DNA from: an uncultured Verrucomicrobiales bacterium
GTDB lineage: Bacteria; Verrucomicrobiota; Verrucomicrobiia; Verrucomicrobiales; DEV007
DNA length: 64,000 bases
Direction: 5' to 3'
Assembly (NCBI GenBank): GCA_937891465.1
Contig: CALAHF010000055.1
Location: forward strand, 1-64,000
The translations under genes and the position numbers were made by a program. Below the pieces are notes generated by a model that made no database searches, was not told the origin of the DNA, and saw only the letters and a program-made list of their open reading frames with translations. Below are positions 18,510-41,342 of this stretch, piece after piece (position 1 is the stretch's first letter; each line of letters opens with the position of its first letter).

Positions 18510-18560
18510 GGGGAACTTGGGTGTGAATCAGCAGCTAATCTGCTGCATCTTCCCCCTTTT
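18510..18560 (+). terminator. Nested hairpin followed by T-tract, probable terminator
   Basis: GGGGAA (18510-18515) pairs with TTCCCC (18550-18555). Inside lies CAGCAG-CTAAT-CTGCTG (18529-18545), and TTTT follows. It lies five bases after the regulator stop and between two convergent genes, where a terminator is expected. Confidence 0.45.
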
Positions 18561-19480
18561 CATTCGAAGGACAATTCATCCGCAAGATCTTCAACCGATC
18601 TTCGATGTGCTTCAGATTGTTCACTGCTCCGCTCTTCTTCCTGGCGCTTCCGATCGAGGAATTTGTCCTCTTCCTTATTTGCTTCGTCTACACAGAGAAT
18701 CAAAGTCTCCCTGTGATACTTTTTCACTTCTTCGAGCGTCGTTCCATCCAGAATGATTTTCGCACCTGTAACCGATGCGATCCCAGGTCTATGCATCAAA
18801 GAATATTGCGGAGGCGAATTCCAGGTGTGGATAAACATCTCGATCCAGATCGCCGATGGCTTTCGATTCAGGCGAAACGGGACTGTATATAATGCGCATC
18901 CAGAAGTTCCATCCATGGTGGGCTCGGTCACTTCATCAACAATCACTCCAACAATTTTGAGCCGTTCGTCCGGTGACAATCTCAGCAAAGGCCTAGGGAA
19001 CGGCACCTTCGTTGCCGGACCGACTGGCGGAGCAGCAGCTCTGGTGTCGAGAAGCGTGGCGGTAAGATCCGAATAGTTCTGAGATCTCCGCTCAGCAGTG
19101 CGGAGGTCGACATAATATTTACCCTTCAGCCAAGAAGGCGCCGATTCAGCTCATGATCCTTTGGCAAGGATCGGGATAAACTTCCGATGATTGCCTTGGG
19201 TATGAACCTCCGCAGTCATGATATCCCCCTCATACCCAACACCACCTTTTCTCTCGTCCGTTTTTAGCTTGTAGTTGGGAGTGCAGGTAATCAAAACGTA
19301 GTCGTTTTCGCGGATCTCTTTCTCCATAAATGCAGGCAACTGGTCACCCGGAATAGCGTGCCACTGATCAAGCATGGTCTCGATGCCATCGCCCCGAAGC
19401 TCGGTTGCCAATGTAGCGACCCGCTCTTTGTGGGGGGCGTCATCCCACGAATATGAAACGAATGCCTTGGGGTTGCTCAT
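18560..19480 (-). pseudogene. TIR/SEFIR-domain protein interrupted by in-frame TGA
   Basis: Reading from ATG at 19480, an N-terminal TIR/SEFIR domain is clear: KAFVSYSWDD, then IETMLDQWHAIPGDQ, NDYVLITCTPNY, GGVGYEGDIMTAEV and KFIPILAKGS. A TGA at 19153-19151 then stops translation. The same frame continues without a gap as AESAPSWLKGKYYVDLRT and stays open to 18560, encoding a further 197 residues with a charged coiled-coil end (EEDKFLDRKRQEEERSSEQ). At this position relatives would be expected to have Trp (KGSW), and a single base change at 19151 converts TGA back to TGG. TIR and SEFIR domains in bacteria are often immune NADases or signalling adaptors. The full product would be about 306 residues. 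Confidence 0.75.
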
Positions 19481-19680
19481 CTTCAATTATCTTCAGCTAA
19501 CAGTCATTAATTGGGGAATCTGATATCAATTGTTAAACCAATCCGAATAAATTTTCCAAGCAGAGCTAACTGTTCGATTCCCCCCCCTGTCAACGGACCG
19601 CAAGATTTCGAGAGCAGTTGATTGCTGATCAAAATTGGTCACCTATTCGAAAATATCACAGTCACCTTCCACCCGTGCAC

Positions 19681-19783
19681 CACGAACCAACAAGGTCTGT
19701 TCGGCGAATTAATAGGGTATGTTCGAAAAGCCGTTTCGATCAAATAGGGTCTGTTCGATGAACTTACCCTATTCGATCGTGGG
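19681..19783. repeat. Palindromic repeat family, two copies, in a 350-bp gap
   Basis: The 350 bases between the TIR gene start and the sulfatase start hold one degenerate copy (about 19681-19733) and one good copy with arms CGATCAAATAGGGT (19737-19750) and ACCCTATTCGATCG (19766-19779). The remaining part, 19481-19680, is AT-rich and shows nothing I can name. This is one of the few copies upstream of genes rather than at a gene end. Confidence 0.8.
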
Positions 19784-19830
19784 ACTGCAAAATCATCGCC
19801 TCGGATGATGGATTCGACTATTCTCTGGCG

Positions 19831-21963
19831 ATGATGAAGTTGTTTTTAACCTCACTTTTTTCCGCCTTACTTGCGGTTTCTGCCTTTGGAATCGAGCCAC
19901 ACCCTGATGCGAAACCGAACTCGCATGCTCCGGGCGAAGTTGATATTCCGGCGAATGTGGCGTTTATCGTGGCGGATAAAACTGAGCTTCCTGGAATCGT
20001 GCTGGACGAAACGGACGCAGTTCTAACGGGGGATTGGCAGTATTCAACTCACACGCCGCCGTATGTGGGGATTGGGTATTTGCACGATATGAAATCGGGC
20101 AAGGGTGAGAAATCAGTGACGTGGAATCCGAAGTTTCCCAAGGCGGGACATTACGAAGTGCGGGTTTCGCATTGTTACAATGTCCGCCGAGCAACGAATA
20201 CGCCGGTGACGATTCGACACGCTAACGGAGAAACGACAGTGCGGATCAATCAGCAGGAAAAACCGGAGCACGATGCCTTGTTTCAGTCGTTGGGCGTTTT
20301 TGAATTTGCCAAAGGACAATCGGGGTCGGTCACGATTTCGAATGACGGGACGGATCCGAAAAAAGTGGCGATTGCGGATGCGGTTCAATTTTTACCGGCT
20401 CCATCGCCCTCTCCTGCAGCGGGTAAAAAGCCGAATGTATTGCTGATCGTGGCGGATGATTTGGGATTTTCGGATCTCGGCTGCTACGGTGGAGAAATCG
20501 AGACGCCGGTGCTGGATTCACTGGCAGCGGGTGGTTTGAAATTGACGCAATTTTACAACACGGGGCGCTGCTGTCCGTCACGGGCGAGCATTTTAACGGG
20601 GCATTACCCGCATCGTGTTGGGCTCGGGCACATGACGCAGGACATTGGCCGAAAAGGGTATTCGGGTTCGGTTTCGAAGGACGCACAAACGATCGCGCAG
20701 GTCCTGAAGCCGGCAGGGTATCGGTCGTTTATTTCGGGGAAATGGCATCTGGGAACGGATGATCCGACACAGCATGGTTTTGAGGGATTTTACGGAACGT
20801 TGGTGAGCGCAAAACGATTTTGGGATGCAAATCACCTCATTCGAAAGCCGGACGGAGCGCCGATGCGGGATTATCATGATGGCGAATTTTACGCGACGGA
20901 TGCGGTGACGGATCATGCGTTAGACTTTCTCGGTCAGGCCCGCCAAACGCCGGATCAACCGTGGTTTTTGTATCTGGCTTACAATGCACCTCACTTTCCG
21001 CTTCATGCCCCGAAAGCCGAAATCAAAAAATATGCAGATCGTTATCAGGGAGGCTGGGATGAACTCCGGGCAGAACGGCTCGACCGCATGAAAGCGCTGG
21101 GGATTGTCGCCAAAGATACCGAGCTGACGCCGCGCTCGCCATGGTGGAATTACGGTGAAACGGAGACGGGAACCAACCCAGCATGGGTGGATTTCCCTGA
21201 AGATCGGCGATTGGATTCTGCTCGTCGAATGGCGATTTACGCAGCGATGGTGGATCGGATGGATCAGCAAATCGGGCGGGTGGTGTCCGATTTGAAAAAA
21301 GAGGGGGAATTCGAAAACACGCTCATTATTTTCACCTCGGACAACGGAGCCTGCGCTGAGTGGGACCCTCGCGGATTCGACGGAAAATCGAGCAACGACA
21401 ATATTTTGCATACAGGCGCTGACTTGGAAAAAATGGGCGGGCCGGGAACGTATCACAGTGCGGGTTCGGGTTGGGCGAATGCGTCGAACACGCCGTGGCG
21501 GCTTTACAAACACTACAATCACGAGGGCGGAATCAATTCGCCCTGCATCATCCACTGGCCGAAAAATCCGATCGCAACTCCAAAGGGCGCGATTGACGAA
21601 ACGCCACGTCACATCATCGATTTGATGCCAACGATTGCTGAGGTTGGCGGTGTTGAATATTCAGGGGAAATTCCACTGCCGGGCGAGCTGATGCTTTCGG
21701 CAACGGATCCAAATCGGACGCTCTATTTCGAACACGAAGGAAACCGGGCCGTTCGCGAAGGCACTTGGAAGCTCGTCGCGCTGCGCGATCAGCCGTGGGA
21801 ATTGTATGATTTTTCGAATCTTCGGACTGAGATGAAAAATCTCGCAGCTGAAAATTCGGAGAAGGTGAATTCACTCAGCAAAAAGTGGGACACGTGGGCG
21901 ACGGAAAATTTCGTGACGCCACTGCCGAAGGACTATCAGGTTAAGTATTTGAAGGTGAAATGA
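19831..21963 (+). CDS. Secreted sulfatase with N-terminal golvesin-like domain
   Basis: 710 residues. After a signal peptide (KLFLTSLFSALLAVSAFG) comes a golvesin-like beta-sandwich (about residues 35-190) with WNPKFPKAGHYEVRVSH and ending IADAVQF. The S1-family sulfatase then starts at KKPNVLLIVADDLGFSDLG. The formylglycine motif is CCPSR, and HLGTDD, APHFPLHAP and TSDNGA are other sulfatase landmarks. It hydrolyses sulfate esters, probably on polysaccharides; the first domain may bind the substrate or cell surface. Maturation needs a formylglycine-generating enzyme or anaerobic sulfatase-maturing enzyme, not seen in this window. Two ATG codons are adjacent at 19831 and 19834, and either may be used. 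Confidence 0.93.
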   Translation: MMKLFLTSLFSALLAVSAFGIEPHPDAKPNSHAPGEVDIPANVAFIVADKTELPGIVLDETDAVLTGDWQYSTHTPPYVGIGYLHDMKSGKGEKSVTWNPKFPKAGHYEVRVSHCYNVRRATNTPVTIRHANGETTVRINQQEKPEHDALFQSLGVFEFAKGQSGSVTISNDGTDPKKVAIADAVQFLPAPSPSPAAGKKPNVLLIVADDLGFSDLGCYGGEIETPVLDSLAAGGLKLTQFYNTGRCCPSRASILTGHYPHRVGLGHMTQDIGRKGYSGSVSKDAQTIAQVLKPAGYRSFISGKWHLGTDDPTQHGFEGFYGTLVSAKRFWDANHLIRKPDGAPMRDYHDGEFYATDAVTDHALDFLGQARQTPDQPWFLYLAYNAPHFPLHAPKAEIKKYADRYQGGWDELRAERLDRMKALGIVAKDTELTPRSPWWNYGETETGTNPAWVDFPEDRRLDSARRMAIYAAMVDRMDQQIGRVVSDLKKEGEFENTLIIFTSDNGACAEWDPRGFDGKSSNDNILHTGADLEKMGGPGTYHSAGSGWANASNTPWRLYKHYNHEGGINSPCIIHWPKNPIATPKGAIDETPRHIIDLMPTIAEVGGVEYSGEIPLPGELMLSATDPNRTLYFEHEGNRAVREGTWKLVALRDQPWELYDFSNLRTEMKNLAAENSEKVNSLSKKWDTWATENFVTPLPKDYQVKYLKVK

Positions 21964-21987
21964 AGCTCGAAAAAAGAGCGGCTTTGG

Positions 21988-22015
21988 TTGCATCGCGTCG
22001 CAGATAGCGGATACT
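21988..22015 (+). promoter_or_regulatory. Sigma-70-type promoter for the structured RNA
   Basis: TTGCAT (21988-21993) and GATACT (22010-22015) are separated by 16 bases. The expected start point, six to seven bases after the -10 box, falls at the first base pairs of the long stem beginning at 22020. Confidence 0.5.
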
Positions 22016-22019
22016 TTCA

Positions 22020-22165
22020 TTGCCTGCCGGGTCATTGAGCGAGATTAGTTTTTCCATCGCGGAAGACATATACAGTCGGACTCAACTTCACGTTGGTCTC
22101 GACTCACATGCGTCACCCGAGAGTTTATAGTTACGATCTTACCAGTGGACCGGCAGGCAACTTTT
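22020..22165 (+). ncRNA. ssrS: Rod-shaped structured RNA, candidate 6S RNA
   Basis: This gap between two genes folds as one long rod. TTGCCTGCCGG (22020-22030) pairs perfectly with CCGGCAGGCAA (22150-22160). The closing stem continues through 22032-22037 with 22143-22148 and through GAGAT (22041-22045) with ATCTT (22136-22140). A large central bubble follows (about 22046-22060 against 22118-22135). An apical arm then includes GAC/GTC (22065-22067 with 22112-22114), AGTCG/CGACT (22074-22078 with 22100-22104) and CAAC-TTCAC-GTTG. A T-rich stretch (CTTTTCCCTTT) follows the closing stem. Closing stem, central bubble and apical hairpin are the 6S RNA plan, which mimics an open promoter and binds sigma-70 polymerase. 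It is a bit shorter than many 6S RNAs. Gene name only if confirmed. Confidence 0.55.
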
Positions 22166-22209
22166 CCCTTTAATTTTAGCGATGACAGCACCGCGCTAGT
22201 TTCTCAGAG

Positions 22210-22689
22210 CTATCGGCTCAAGTCCTCTTGCATGAGGACTTTATAACCGGCTTCATTCAGCACCTGCTTGCCGAATTGATTGTCTTCCGCGCATAGCGCC
22301 ATGGCAGCTCGGCCATTCGGACGCGTCAGAATGGGATACAGAAAATGAACATTCGTTTCTGCATTGAGAAGTTCGCGAAGCAATTTGGGAAGATCTTCAG
22401 CACCATGAACCAATTCAACAACGAGGACTTCCGTCGTGGAATAGGCGATCCCCTTTTCGATAAACAGGGTTTCGATCGTATCAGGATCGCTCACAATGAG
22501 GCGCACCACGGTTGAATCGACCGAATCCTTCACCGATAGGCCAAGAACGAGCACGTCATTGTCGGCAATGAGTTGAACGATGGAAAGCAGAGCTCCGGCA
22601 CGGTTTTCGAGAAAAACGACAAGCTGCACAACGGATGAGCCAGAGCTAATCGCCGACGTGATATCGTGTTCCGGGTCTCCAATTTCCAT
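22210..22689 (-). CDS. Tandem ACT-domain regulatory protein
   Basis: 159 residues. The first ACT domain reads VVQLVVFLENRAGALLSIVQLIADNDVLVLGL, with the usual N/RAG-x-L turn. The second half ends in KQVLNEAGYKVLMQEDL, like the second ACT repeat of small tandem-ACT proteins. ACT domains bind amino acids and control enzymes or transport; no catalytic domain is attached here. It lies 57 bp downstream of glmS on the same strand and may be cotranscribed. The ligand is unknown; some relatives are annotated as acetolactate synthase small-subunit-like, but this one is not next to ilv genes. Confidence 0.8.
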   Translation of the reverse strand: MEIGDPEHDITSAISSGSSVVQLVVFLENRAGALLSIVQLIADNDVLVLGLSVKDSVDSTVVRLIVSDPDTIETLFIEKGIAYSTTEVLVVELVHGAEDLPKLLRELLNAETNVHFLYPILTRPNGRAAMALCAEDNQFGKQVLNEAGYKVLMQEDLSR

Positions 22690-38407: not shown

Positions 38408-41200
38408 ATGGCTACTAAAAAAACCGCGAAGAAAAAAACTGCGGCCAAAAAACCCGTTGCGAAAAAAGCAGCGGCCAAGAAGAACTCTAAAATGGTTTAC
38501 TACTTCGGCGCTGGAAAGTCCGATGGTAACGGTAAGCAAAAAGCGCTGCTCGGCGGTAAAGGTGCAAACCTTGCTGAGATGGCCTCTATCGGTCTGCCCG
38601 TTCCTGCAGGCTTGACGATCACGACTGAGGTCTGCAACCACTACTACGACAATGGTTGCAAATGGCCTGCTGATTTGGAGAGACAAATCAAAGCCAACAT
38701 CACTAAGATCGAAAAGGCGATGGGCAAAAAGTTCAACAACCTGGACAACCCGCTTCTCCTTTCCGTTCGCTCCGGCGCTCGCGATTCGATGCCGGGAATG
38801 ATGGATACGATTTTGAACCTCGGCATCAACGATGAAGTTGCTGAGTCGCTCGCGAAGAAAACGGGCAACCCGACTTTTGCATGGGACAGCTACCGTCGCT
38901 TTCTCCAGATGTATGGCGAAGTCGTGATGGGCGTTGAGCAGCACGCGAACGAGCACCACGATCCATTCGAGGTGATTCTCGATAAGGCGAAAGCCAAGCG
39001 CAAAGTCGCGACCGATTCCGATTTGAATGAAGCCGAGCTCAAGTGGGTCGTTGCCGAGTGCAAAAAACTCATCAAGTCACGTACCGGAAAAGATTTCCCA
39101 ACTGATCCAATGGAGCAGCTGGTTGGTTCTGTGAACGCAGTTTTCAATTCATGGCAGAACGACCGCGCGAAGGTTTACCGCCAGAAATACGGCATCCCTG
39201 CTGAGTGGGGCACCGCTGTAAACGTTCAGGCAATGGTCTTCGGTAACACCGGTAAAAAATCAGGAACCGGCGTGGCTTTCACACGTGACCCTGCAACTGG
39301 TGAAAATGTTTTCTACGGTGAGTATCTCATCGACGCGCAGGGCGAAGACGTTGTTGCCGGTGTTCGTACACCAAAGCAGGTCAAGCAGATGTCGAAAGAC
39401 CTTCCGAAATCTCACAAAGAGCTCTTGAAAGTGCGCGGCATTCTTGAAAAGCACTTCCGTGACGTTCAGGACATCGAGTTCACGATCGAAGAAGGAAAAT
39501 TGTGGATGCTTCAGACTCGTAACGGTAAGCGCACCGGTTTCGCTGCGGTGAACATCGCAATCGACATGGTGAAAGAGAAGCTCATCACTCAGGAAGAAGC
39601 GATTTTGCGTATTCCTGCTGATGACTTGAGCCACCTCCTCGCTCCGATCTTTGATACTGCTGCTGAGAAGAAGGCGAAGAAGATGGGATCCGGCCTTCCT
39701 GCTGGTCCCGGTGCTGCTTCCGGTAAGATCTACTTTTCTGCTGAAGAGTCAGTTGCTGCAGAAGCTCGTGGTGAAAAAGTCATGCTCGTTCGGATGGCAA
39801 CATCTCCAGAAGATCTTCGCGGTATGATTGCTGCGGAAGGTATTCTCACAACTGAAGGGGGTGCTTCTTCACACGCGGCACTCGTTGCTCGTCAGATGGG
39901 TAAAATCTGCGTTTGCGGTGCTCACGGCATGGTAATCGATTACAAAAAGAAAACGCTTTCCGGAAACGGCATCACGTTGAAGCAGGGCGATGAGCTCTCA
40001 CTCAACGGATTCGTTGGAAACGTTTACGCTGGTGGAATCAAGGCTTCACCATCACAGGTTATTCAAGGTCTCATCGAGAACAAAGCAGCCGCTAAGAAAT
40101 CCGCGACATACAAGAAGTTCGTTGAGCTGATGAAGTGGACTGACAAGCACCGCAAGCTCGGTGTTCGTACCAACTCTGATACTCCAGAGCAGGTTCGTCA
40201 GGCGATCCTCTTCGGTGGTGAAGGCATTGGCCTCACACGTTCGGAGCACATGTTCTTCGAAGGAAACCGGATCGACGCTGTTCGTGAAATGATTCTTGCT
40301 GACGACGACGCAGGTCGCGCCAAGGCACTCAAGAAGATCAAGGCCTTCCAGAAGAAAGACTTCATCGGTATTTTCAAAGCACTCGATGGTCGCCCGGCGA
40401 CAATCCGTCTTCTGGATCCACCACTTCACGAGTTCATCGGCACCATGGATGCGAAGCAGAAGACGGATCTTTCTAAGAAGATCGGCATGAGCGCAGCTGC
40501 AATCACTAAGCGGATTCACTCTCTTCACGAAGAGAACCCAATGCTTGGTCACCGTGGTTGCCGTCTCGGCATCAGTTACCCTGCAGTTACTGCAGCGCAA
40601 GTTGAGGCGATCCTCGAAGCAGCTGCTGAAGTTCAAGCTAAAGGCACCAAAGTTCTCCCTGAGATCATGGTTCCTCTCGTTGCTTACGCACGCGAGCTTG
40701 AGCTCCAGAAGCAGGTCATCGACGAAGCAGCTGTTGGCGTTCGGAAGAAATATGACCTCAAGAAGTCTGAGTTGAAATACACTGTCGGAACTATGATTGA
40801 GATTCCACGCGCAGCCCTGACCGCTGATGAAGTGGCGAAGCACGCTGAGTTCTTCTCATTCGGAACCAACGACCTCACGCAGACCGGTCTCGGCCTCAGC
40901 CGTGATGACTCGTCTTCGTTTCTTCCAACTTATCAGGACGCTGAAGTTCTCAACAACAACCCGTTCGCGGCACTCGATCAAGAGGGTGTTGGTCAACTAG
41001 TTGAGATGGGTGTTAAAAAAGGTCGTTCGACAAAGAGGAAACTCAAAATCGGAATCTGCGGCGAGCACGGCGGAGATCCTGATTCAGTGAAGTTCTTCCA
41101 CCGCACAGGACTCGACTACGTTTCTTGCTCACCATTCCGTATCCCAATCGCCCGCCTTGCAGCAGCACAGGCAGCGCTTGAAGATAAGAAAAAGAAGTGA
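38408..41200 (+). CDS. ppdK: Pyruvate phosphate dikinase with histone-H1-like N-terminal tail
   Basis: 930 residues. The enzyme interconverts pyruvate + ATP + Pi and PEP + AMP + PPi, at the glycolysis/gluconeogenesis junction. The N-terminal ATP-grasp domain starts [14 protein letters not shown] and has [16 protein letters not shown]. The phosphohistidine domain has [19 protein letters not shown] with the carrier His. The C-terminal TIM barrel ends with [10 protein letters not shown]. Residues 1-28 are an extra tail of Lys/Ala/Pro repeats ([14 protein letters not shown]) like histone H1 tails, ahead of the normal start near MVYYFGAGK. Codon choice is biased to GGT, GCT and CGT, unlike its neighbours, consistent with high expression. 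Confidence 0.97.
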
Positions 41201-41232
41201 GCTGAAGTGCTAGCTTAAGAAAAATTCGAAGA

Positions 41233-41264
41233 GGGCAGTCGGTGCGAACCGGCTGCCCTTTTTT
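41233..41264 (+). terminator. Rho-independent terminator of ppdK
   Basis: GGGCAGTCGGT (41233-41243) and ACCGGCTGCCC (41248-41258) form an 11-bp stem with one G-T pair, closed by a GCGA tetraloop and followed by six T, 33 bases after the ppdK stop. Confidence 0.93.
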
Positions 41265-41286
41265 CGTTTTTGTGAAAGCGTAGGAT

Positions 41287-41342
41287 GGCTCTCCAGTGCC
41301 GACTTATCTTAAAACAGGCAACGATGACAGCTCTGGAGAGCC
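41287..41342. repeat. Long-spaced inverted repeat in ppdK downstream gap
   Basis: GGCTCTCCAG (41287-41296) and CTGGAGAGCC (41333-41342) are perfect complements separated by 36 bases. The 300-base gap 41201-41505 otherwise contains only the ppdK terminator, and no gene is seen. It might be a small RNA hairpin or an insertion-element scar. Confidence 0.55.

Follow-up and report, generated by a model that had tools for sequence, protein, structure and literature searches.

Evidence for a stand-alone structured RNA family distinct from 6S RNA in the Verrucomicrobiales

Introduction

Several described RNAs resemble the RNA reported here in one or the other respect. 6S RNA (SsrS; RF00013) is likewise a stand-alone RNA of a similar size class, with its own promoter and a long closing rod, whereas the new RNA shows no sequence-structure match to it, its core being branched and containing a conserved hairpin where 6S RNA has an open bubble. 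Ms1 RNA of mycobacteria, which binds core RNA polymerase (PMC4191392), is also a stand-alone structured RNA other than 6S; the two show no sequence relation at the level of Rfam and differ in that the new RNA coexists with 6S RNA. The small SRP RNA (RF00169) resembles it as a stable RNA of 100-150 nt with a rod-like shape and a single gene copy, but the genome studied here has its own SRP RNA elsewhere. Closest in status are orphan structured motifs, e.g. Acido-Lenti-1 (PMC2864571), which are conserved, apparently not cis-regulatory, limited to certain lineages and without an assigned function; the new RNA differs from these in matching no Rfam 15 family, Acido-Lenti-1 and the other accessioned motifs of PMC2864571 included. 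For the PVC group as a whole, a review puts the number of distinct small-RNA families at 8, out of about 550 (PMC9029176).

We describe here a single-copy, structure-conserved RNA family which is absent from Rfam and for which our literature search found no earlier description, i.e. a well-supported structured RNA family in a lineage with few described small RNAs. The copy from which we started lies in the window, the whole stretch of 64,000 nucleotides analysed from an uncultured Verrucomicrobiales bacterium, and had been regarded as a candidate 6S RNA in a first-pass annotation made from the sequence alone. Our data suggest that the locus is very probably a stand-alone structured RNA gene and not 6S.

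Results

The locus and its gene-like signals

The RNA lies between two convergent genes, a sulfatase gene ending at 21963 and an ACT-domain gene ending at 22210. The first-pass annotation had seen no coding alternative in this gap, and we confirm that no gene is present within 21963-22210; an open reading frame common to the homologous copies was not found either. The ACT-domain gene (22210-22689, - strand) encodes an ACT-domain pair (Pfam ACT_8) just downstream of glmS and has matches in 33 of 37 relatives. The features of the locus are as follows, both ends of the RNA being predicted:

21988..21993, + strand: -35 hexamer TTGCAT, read from the sequence, with promoter-like hexamers at the equivalent site in homologues
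22010..22015, + strand: -10 hexamer GATACT, 16 nt after the -35 hexamer; homologues keep [GC]ATA(G/T)T
22020..22165, + strand: small RNA gene; a covariance model matches 22019-22165, with 30 homologues showing covariation
about 22020-22022 and about 22165: predicted 5' end and predicted 3' end of the small RNA
22020..22038, + strand: closing stem P1, 5' side, perfect over 22020-22030
22039..22047, + strand: P2, 5' side, GCGAGATTA, pairing with GATCTTACC with compensatory changes
22052..22064, + strand: P3 hairpin TTCC-ATCGC-GGAA, the most conserved element
22065..22114, + strand: P4, variable branch with the base GACATAT / ATGCGTC, double changes at all 3 scored pairs
22116..22123, + strand: CCCGAGAG, counterpart of the conserved CCUGAGG motif; may form P5, though imperfectly in the window copy
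22134..22143, + strand: P2, 3' side, CGATCTTACC, from the covariation alignments
22143..22160, + strand: closing stem P1, 3' side, perfect over 22150-22160
22161..22172, + strand: U-rich, terminator-like tail 3' of the closing stem, from the sequence and T enrichment in homologues

The promoter TTGCAT-16-GATACT and the T-rich run, which itself spans 22162-22172 in the window, are located where the first-pass annotation had placed them, and both kinds of signal recur in the homologues. Most of 29 homologous loci have promoter-like hexamers immediately before the closing stem (mean score 7.43, compared to 6.61 +/- 0.14 for shuffled sequences), and the T fraction after the stem amounts to 0.46 at the same site against a background of 0.22. 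In the alignment of the homologues 144 G-U cells stand against 41 A-C cells, an excess that assigns the RNA to the + strand.

The genes neighbouring the RNA vary from genus to genus; except for the two in the window, neighbours were named by eye. Promoter-like hexamers and the U-rich tail are kept while the flanking genes change, supporting a stand-alone gene. In the genome from the same genus, the site following the ACT gene holds an ordinary terminator, and a diverged copy of the RNA is found elsewhere; this copy is weak (30.6 bits) and lies between two other convergent genes, which together with the varied neighbours indicates that the RNA gene has no fixed partner gene. The locus combines the features by which a stand-alone structured small RNA is recognised, i.e. 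promoter-like and terminator-like ends, a covarying structure, no conserved open reading frame and a variable context.

Fold of the window copy

The 11-bp perfect closing stem seen in the first-pass annotation is present (TTGCCTGCCGG, 22020-22030, pairing with CCGGCAGGCAA, 22150-22160); the window contains no other perfect inverted repeat of 11 bp with a gap of 60-160 nt. Folding of 21980-22180 on both strands, which had been proposed as a check, yielded -64.8 kcal/mol and z -3.65 for the + strand, a stability equalled by 0 of 200 shuffles, and z -3.0 for the reverse strand. Among 435 tiles of the same size taken from the window, none is more stable for its G+C than the RNA region (z -3.69). 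In the free-energy minimum of the window copy (-58.0, compared to -48.6 when constrained to the consensus), the 3' side of P3 is paired with the P5 region and the consensus P3 is not formed; both the consensus fold and the minimum could form in the core of this copy. As a separate observation, 41161-41307 and 19699-19845 also have unusually stable folds for their G+C, with residual z of -3.6 and -3.3, respectively.

Homologues and distribution

In 387 genomes of the order, blastn returned short but real matches to 22025-22064, and, allowing for some variation, six of the relatives have the closing stem, GUUGAGCGAGAYUA, UUCCAUCGCGGAA, GGUCUUACC and the U-run in common. Many of the first blast matches, at E 0.01-1, appear to be chance or coding-sequence matches. 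A covariance model built from the six relatives and the window gave one match each in 34 genomes at E<=0.01, E-values of such home-made models being rough and training sequences matching by construction; 30 loci were retained. The copies first found by this model alone, e.g. in G089, G129, G033 and G103 (93 to 100 bits), do not depend on the sequences used to train it. A second model, built from 30 copies, gave one match per genome in 33 of the 75 genomes of the taxonomic family, covering 8 of 18 genera and reaching up to 119 bits.

The remaining 42 of the 75 family genomes gave no match, some of these being complete to 90% or more, and the distribution is patchy: either the RNA is missing from part of the family or some copies are too diverged for the models to recognise. 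When 384 genomes of the class were searched with the second model, the genome of the window was the sole one to match. Partial matches in G016 and G024 cover only the closing rod, lack the core and resemble ordinary terminators. We rejected a dispersed repeat or mobile element as an explanation, the RNA being present in its genome without a second copy and giving no plasmid or phage matches. Outside this locus, the 11-bp inverted ends were seen again on just four distant contigs, from unrelated organisms, which we estimate to be about the number expected by chance, and on none of the viral contigs.

Consensus architecture and covariation

The homologues agree on a closing rod, P1/P2, which opens into a branched core containing the P3 hairpin UUCC-AUNGC-GGAA, the variable branch P4 and possibly P5 of the form CC-NNN-GG. 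In a structure-free MAFFT alignment of 30 copies, 86.5% of the cells are paired, compared to 76.9% in shuffled alignments, and double changes occur at 21 of 33 pairs, with 100 double-change cells against 36.5 expected and 0 of 500 shuffles as high. Sliding the pairing partners lowers pairing to 31-46%, a control which is biased toward the scored structure because this was derived from the same sequences; the counts of changed pairs form the stronger part of the evidence. The alignment fitted to the covariance model gives a picture in agreement with this. Across these alignments the predicted helices P1, P2 and P4 are supported by covariation and P3 mostly by conservation; a mutual-information search for additional tertiary pairs in the 30 sequences brought up nothing clear besides the helices.

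These data bear on the 6S plan of closing stem, open bubble and apical stem, on which the first-pass annotation had relied. Its closing stem holds, whereas its open centre does not: the large central bubble is an impression gained from a single sequence, the relatives showing at this place a conserved short hairpin, P3, and a second branch, P4.

Discussion

Proposed function

We propose that transcription from a sigma-70-type promoter, predicted from the conserved signals, would begin with the first bases of the closing stem and be terminated by this stem together with the U-run, giving a single stable RNA about 145 nt long. An independent, promoter-driven and rod-closed small RNA of this size had been predicted in the first-pass annotation, and this part of it is backed by the homologues and by covariation. 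The RNA would fold into the P1-P2 rod and the core with its UUCC-AUNGC-GGAA hairpin, variable branch and CCUGAGG-type motif, and may act in trans as the scaffold or decoy of a protein that binds it; base pairing with mRNA would then not be its main mode of action. Protein binding is the less secure part of this model. We put it forward tentatively, on the grounds that paired positions of the core are conserved in sequence as well as in pairing and that single-stranded regions show little conservation.

As to function, the main rival is a regulatory small RNA that base-pairs with messenger RNAs, which is the mode of most known stand-alone bacterial small RNAs (PMC9029176). We regard this as unlikely for the RNA described here, since its conserved sequence is found mainly in helices and short loops and no long conserved single strand is present. 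Quite a long shot would be a second global regulator RNA, existing beside 6S with a different architecture and binding the transcription machinery or another central protein.

Relation to 6S and SRP RNA

A divergent 6S RNA, or a second 6S-like RNA binding RNA polymerase via open-promoter mimicry, would share with our RNA the closing rod, the own promoter, a similar size and the internal loops in the single-sequence fold, and 12 of the 33 carriers are without a separate 6S match, which may reflect draft genomes or divergent 6S. Several observations make this reading, and with it the 6S identity suggested in the first-pass annotation, very unlikely. The search with the Rfam 6S model which that annotation had named as a check returns no RF00013 match to the gap even at E<10, and likewise none to the homologues; RF00169 gives no match to the gap at E<10. 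No Rfam family scores above threshold across the whole window and none matches the homologues, a match of MIR1886 in the gap at E 8.8 being due to chance.

The genome has its own 6S RNA on another contig (G000:C195:28464-28651), a full-length RF00013 match with E 1e-5 and 37.8 bits, below the gathering score of 46.4, which full-length matches exceed in 10 of 57 relatives. Its own SRP RNA (RF00169; 65.1 bits) likewise lies on another contig. A separate 6S match is found in 21 of the 33 carriers at a more sensitive setting (12 above the Rfam cut-off), arguing against a replacement of 6S by the new RNA. Conversely, the model of the new RNA misses the 6S loci, its one weak match there falling outside the 6S element, and its core is branched with a conserved hairpin. 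The RNA coexists with 6S and SRP RNA and substitutes for neither, which points to a role not yet assigned. A rod-like fold alone is therefore insufficient for a 6S label, and the true 6S gene of a genome needs to be checked first.

Relation to neighbouring genes

A cis-acting leader or attenuator controlling the gene directly downstream is highly improbable as a general explanation. It would fit 9 of the 30 loci, all of one genus, at which the start of a lipoprotein gene lies within -2 to +7 nt of the model end. The other 21 loci are without such a gene, there is no consistent same-strand downstream family, the next gene is convergent both in the window and at the same-genus copy, and the RNA has its own terminator-like end. 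Read-through or a leader role could occur at the lipoprotein-adjacent loci of this one genus. At these nine loci (L090, L091, L093, L094, L097, L102, L105, L106 and L111) the start codon of the lipoprotein-like gene, encoding about 170 aa, lies at the U-run of the RNA, the order often being def, a DUF368-like membrane gene, the RNA and the lipoprotein gene (names assigned by eye); for two of the lipoprotein-like proteins, the N-terminal 59 and 70 residues were compared with Pfam and gave no match.

A bidirectional terminator or decayed inverted repeat without RNA function, as might be imagined from the convergent setting and the well-folding reverse strand, has next to no likelihood, since homologues in other contexts keep the interior sequence, the promoter-like signals and the covarying helices.

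As a stand-alone structured RNA gene present in a single copy and with its own conserved promoter, the locus should be easy to delete and its RNA easy to pull down.

Other features of the window

Upstream of the RNA locus, a short open reading frame of 111 aa with a TIR/SEFIR domain is found at 19151-19486 on the - strand (Pfam TIR_2, 1.7e-15; SEFIR, 4.6e-15). It is adjoined on the same strand by an unmatched open reading frame of 148 aa (18560-19006), and the two possibly represent a broken or frameshifted defence-type gene.
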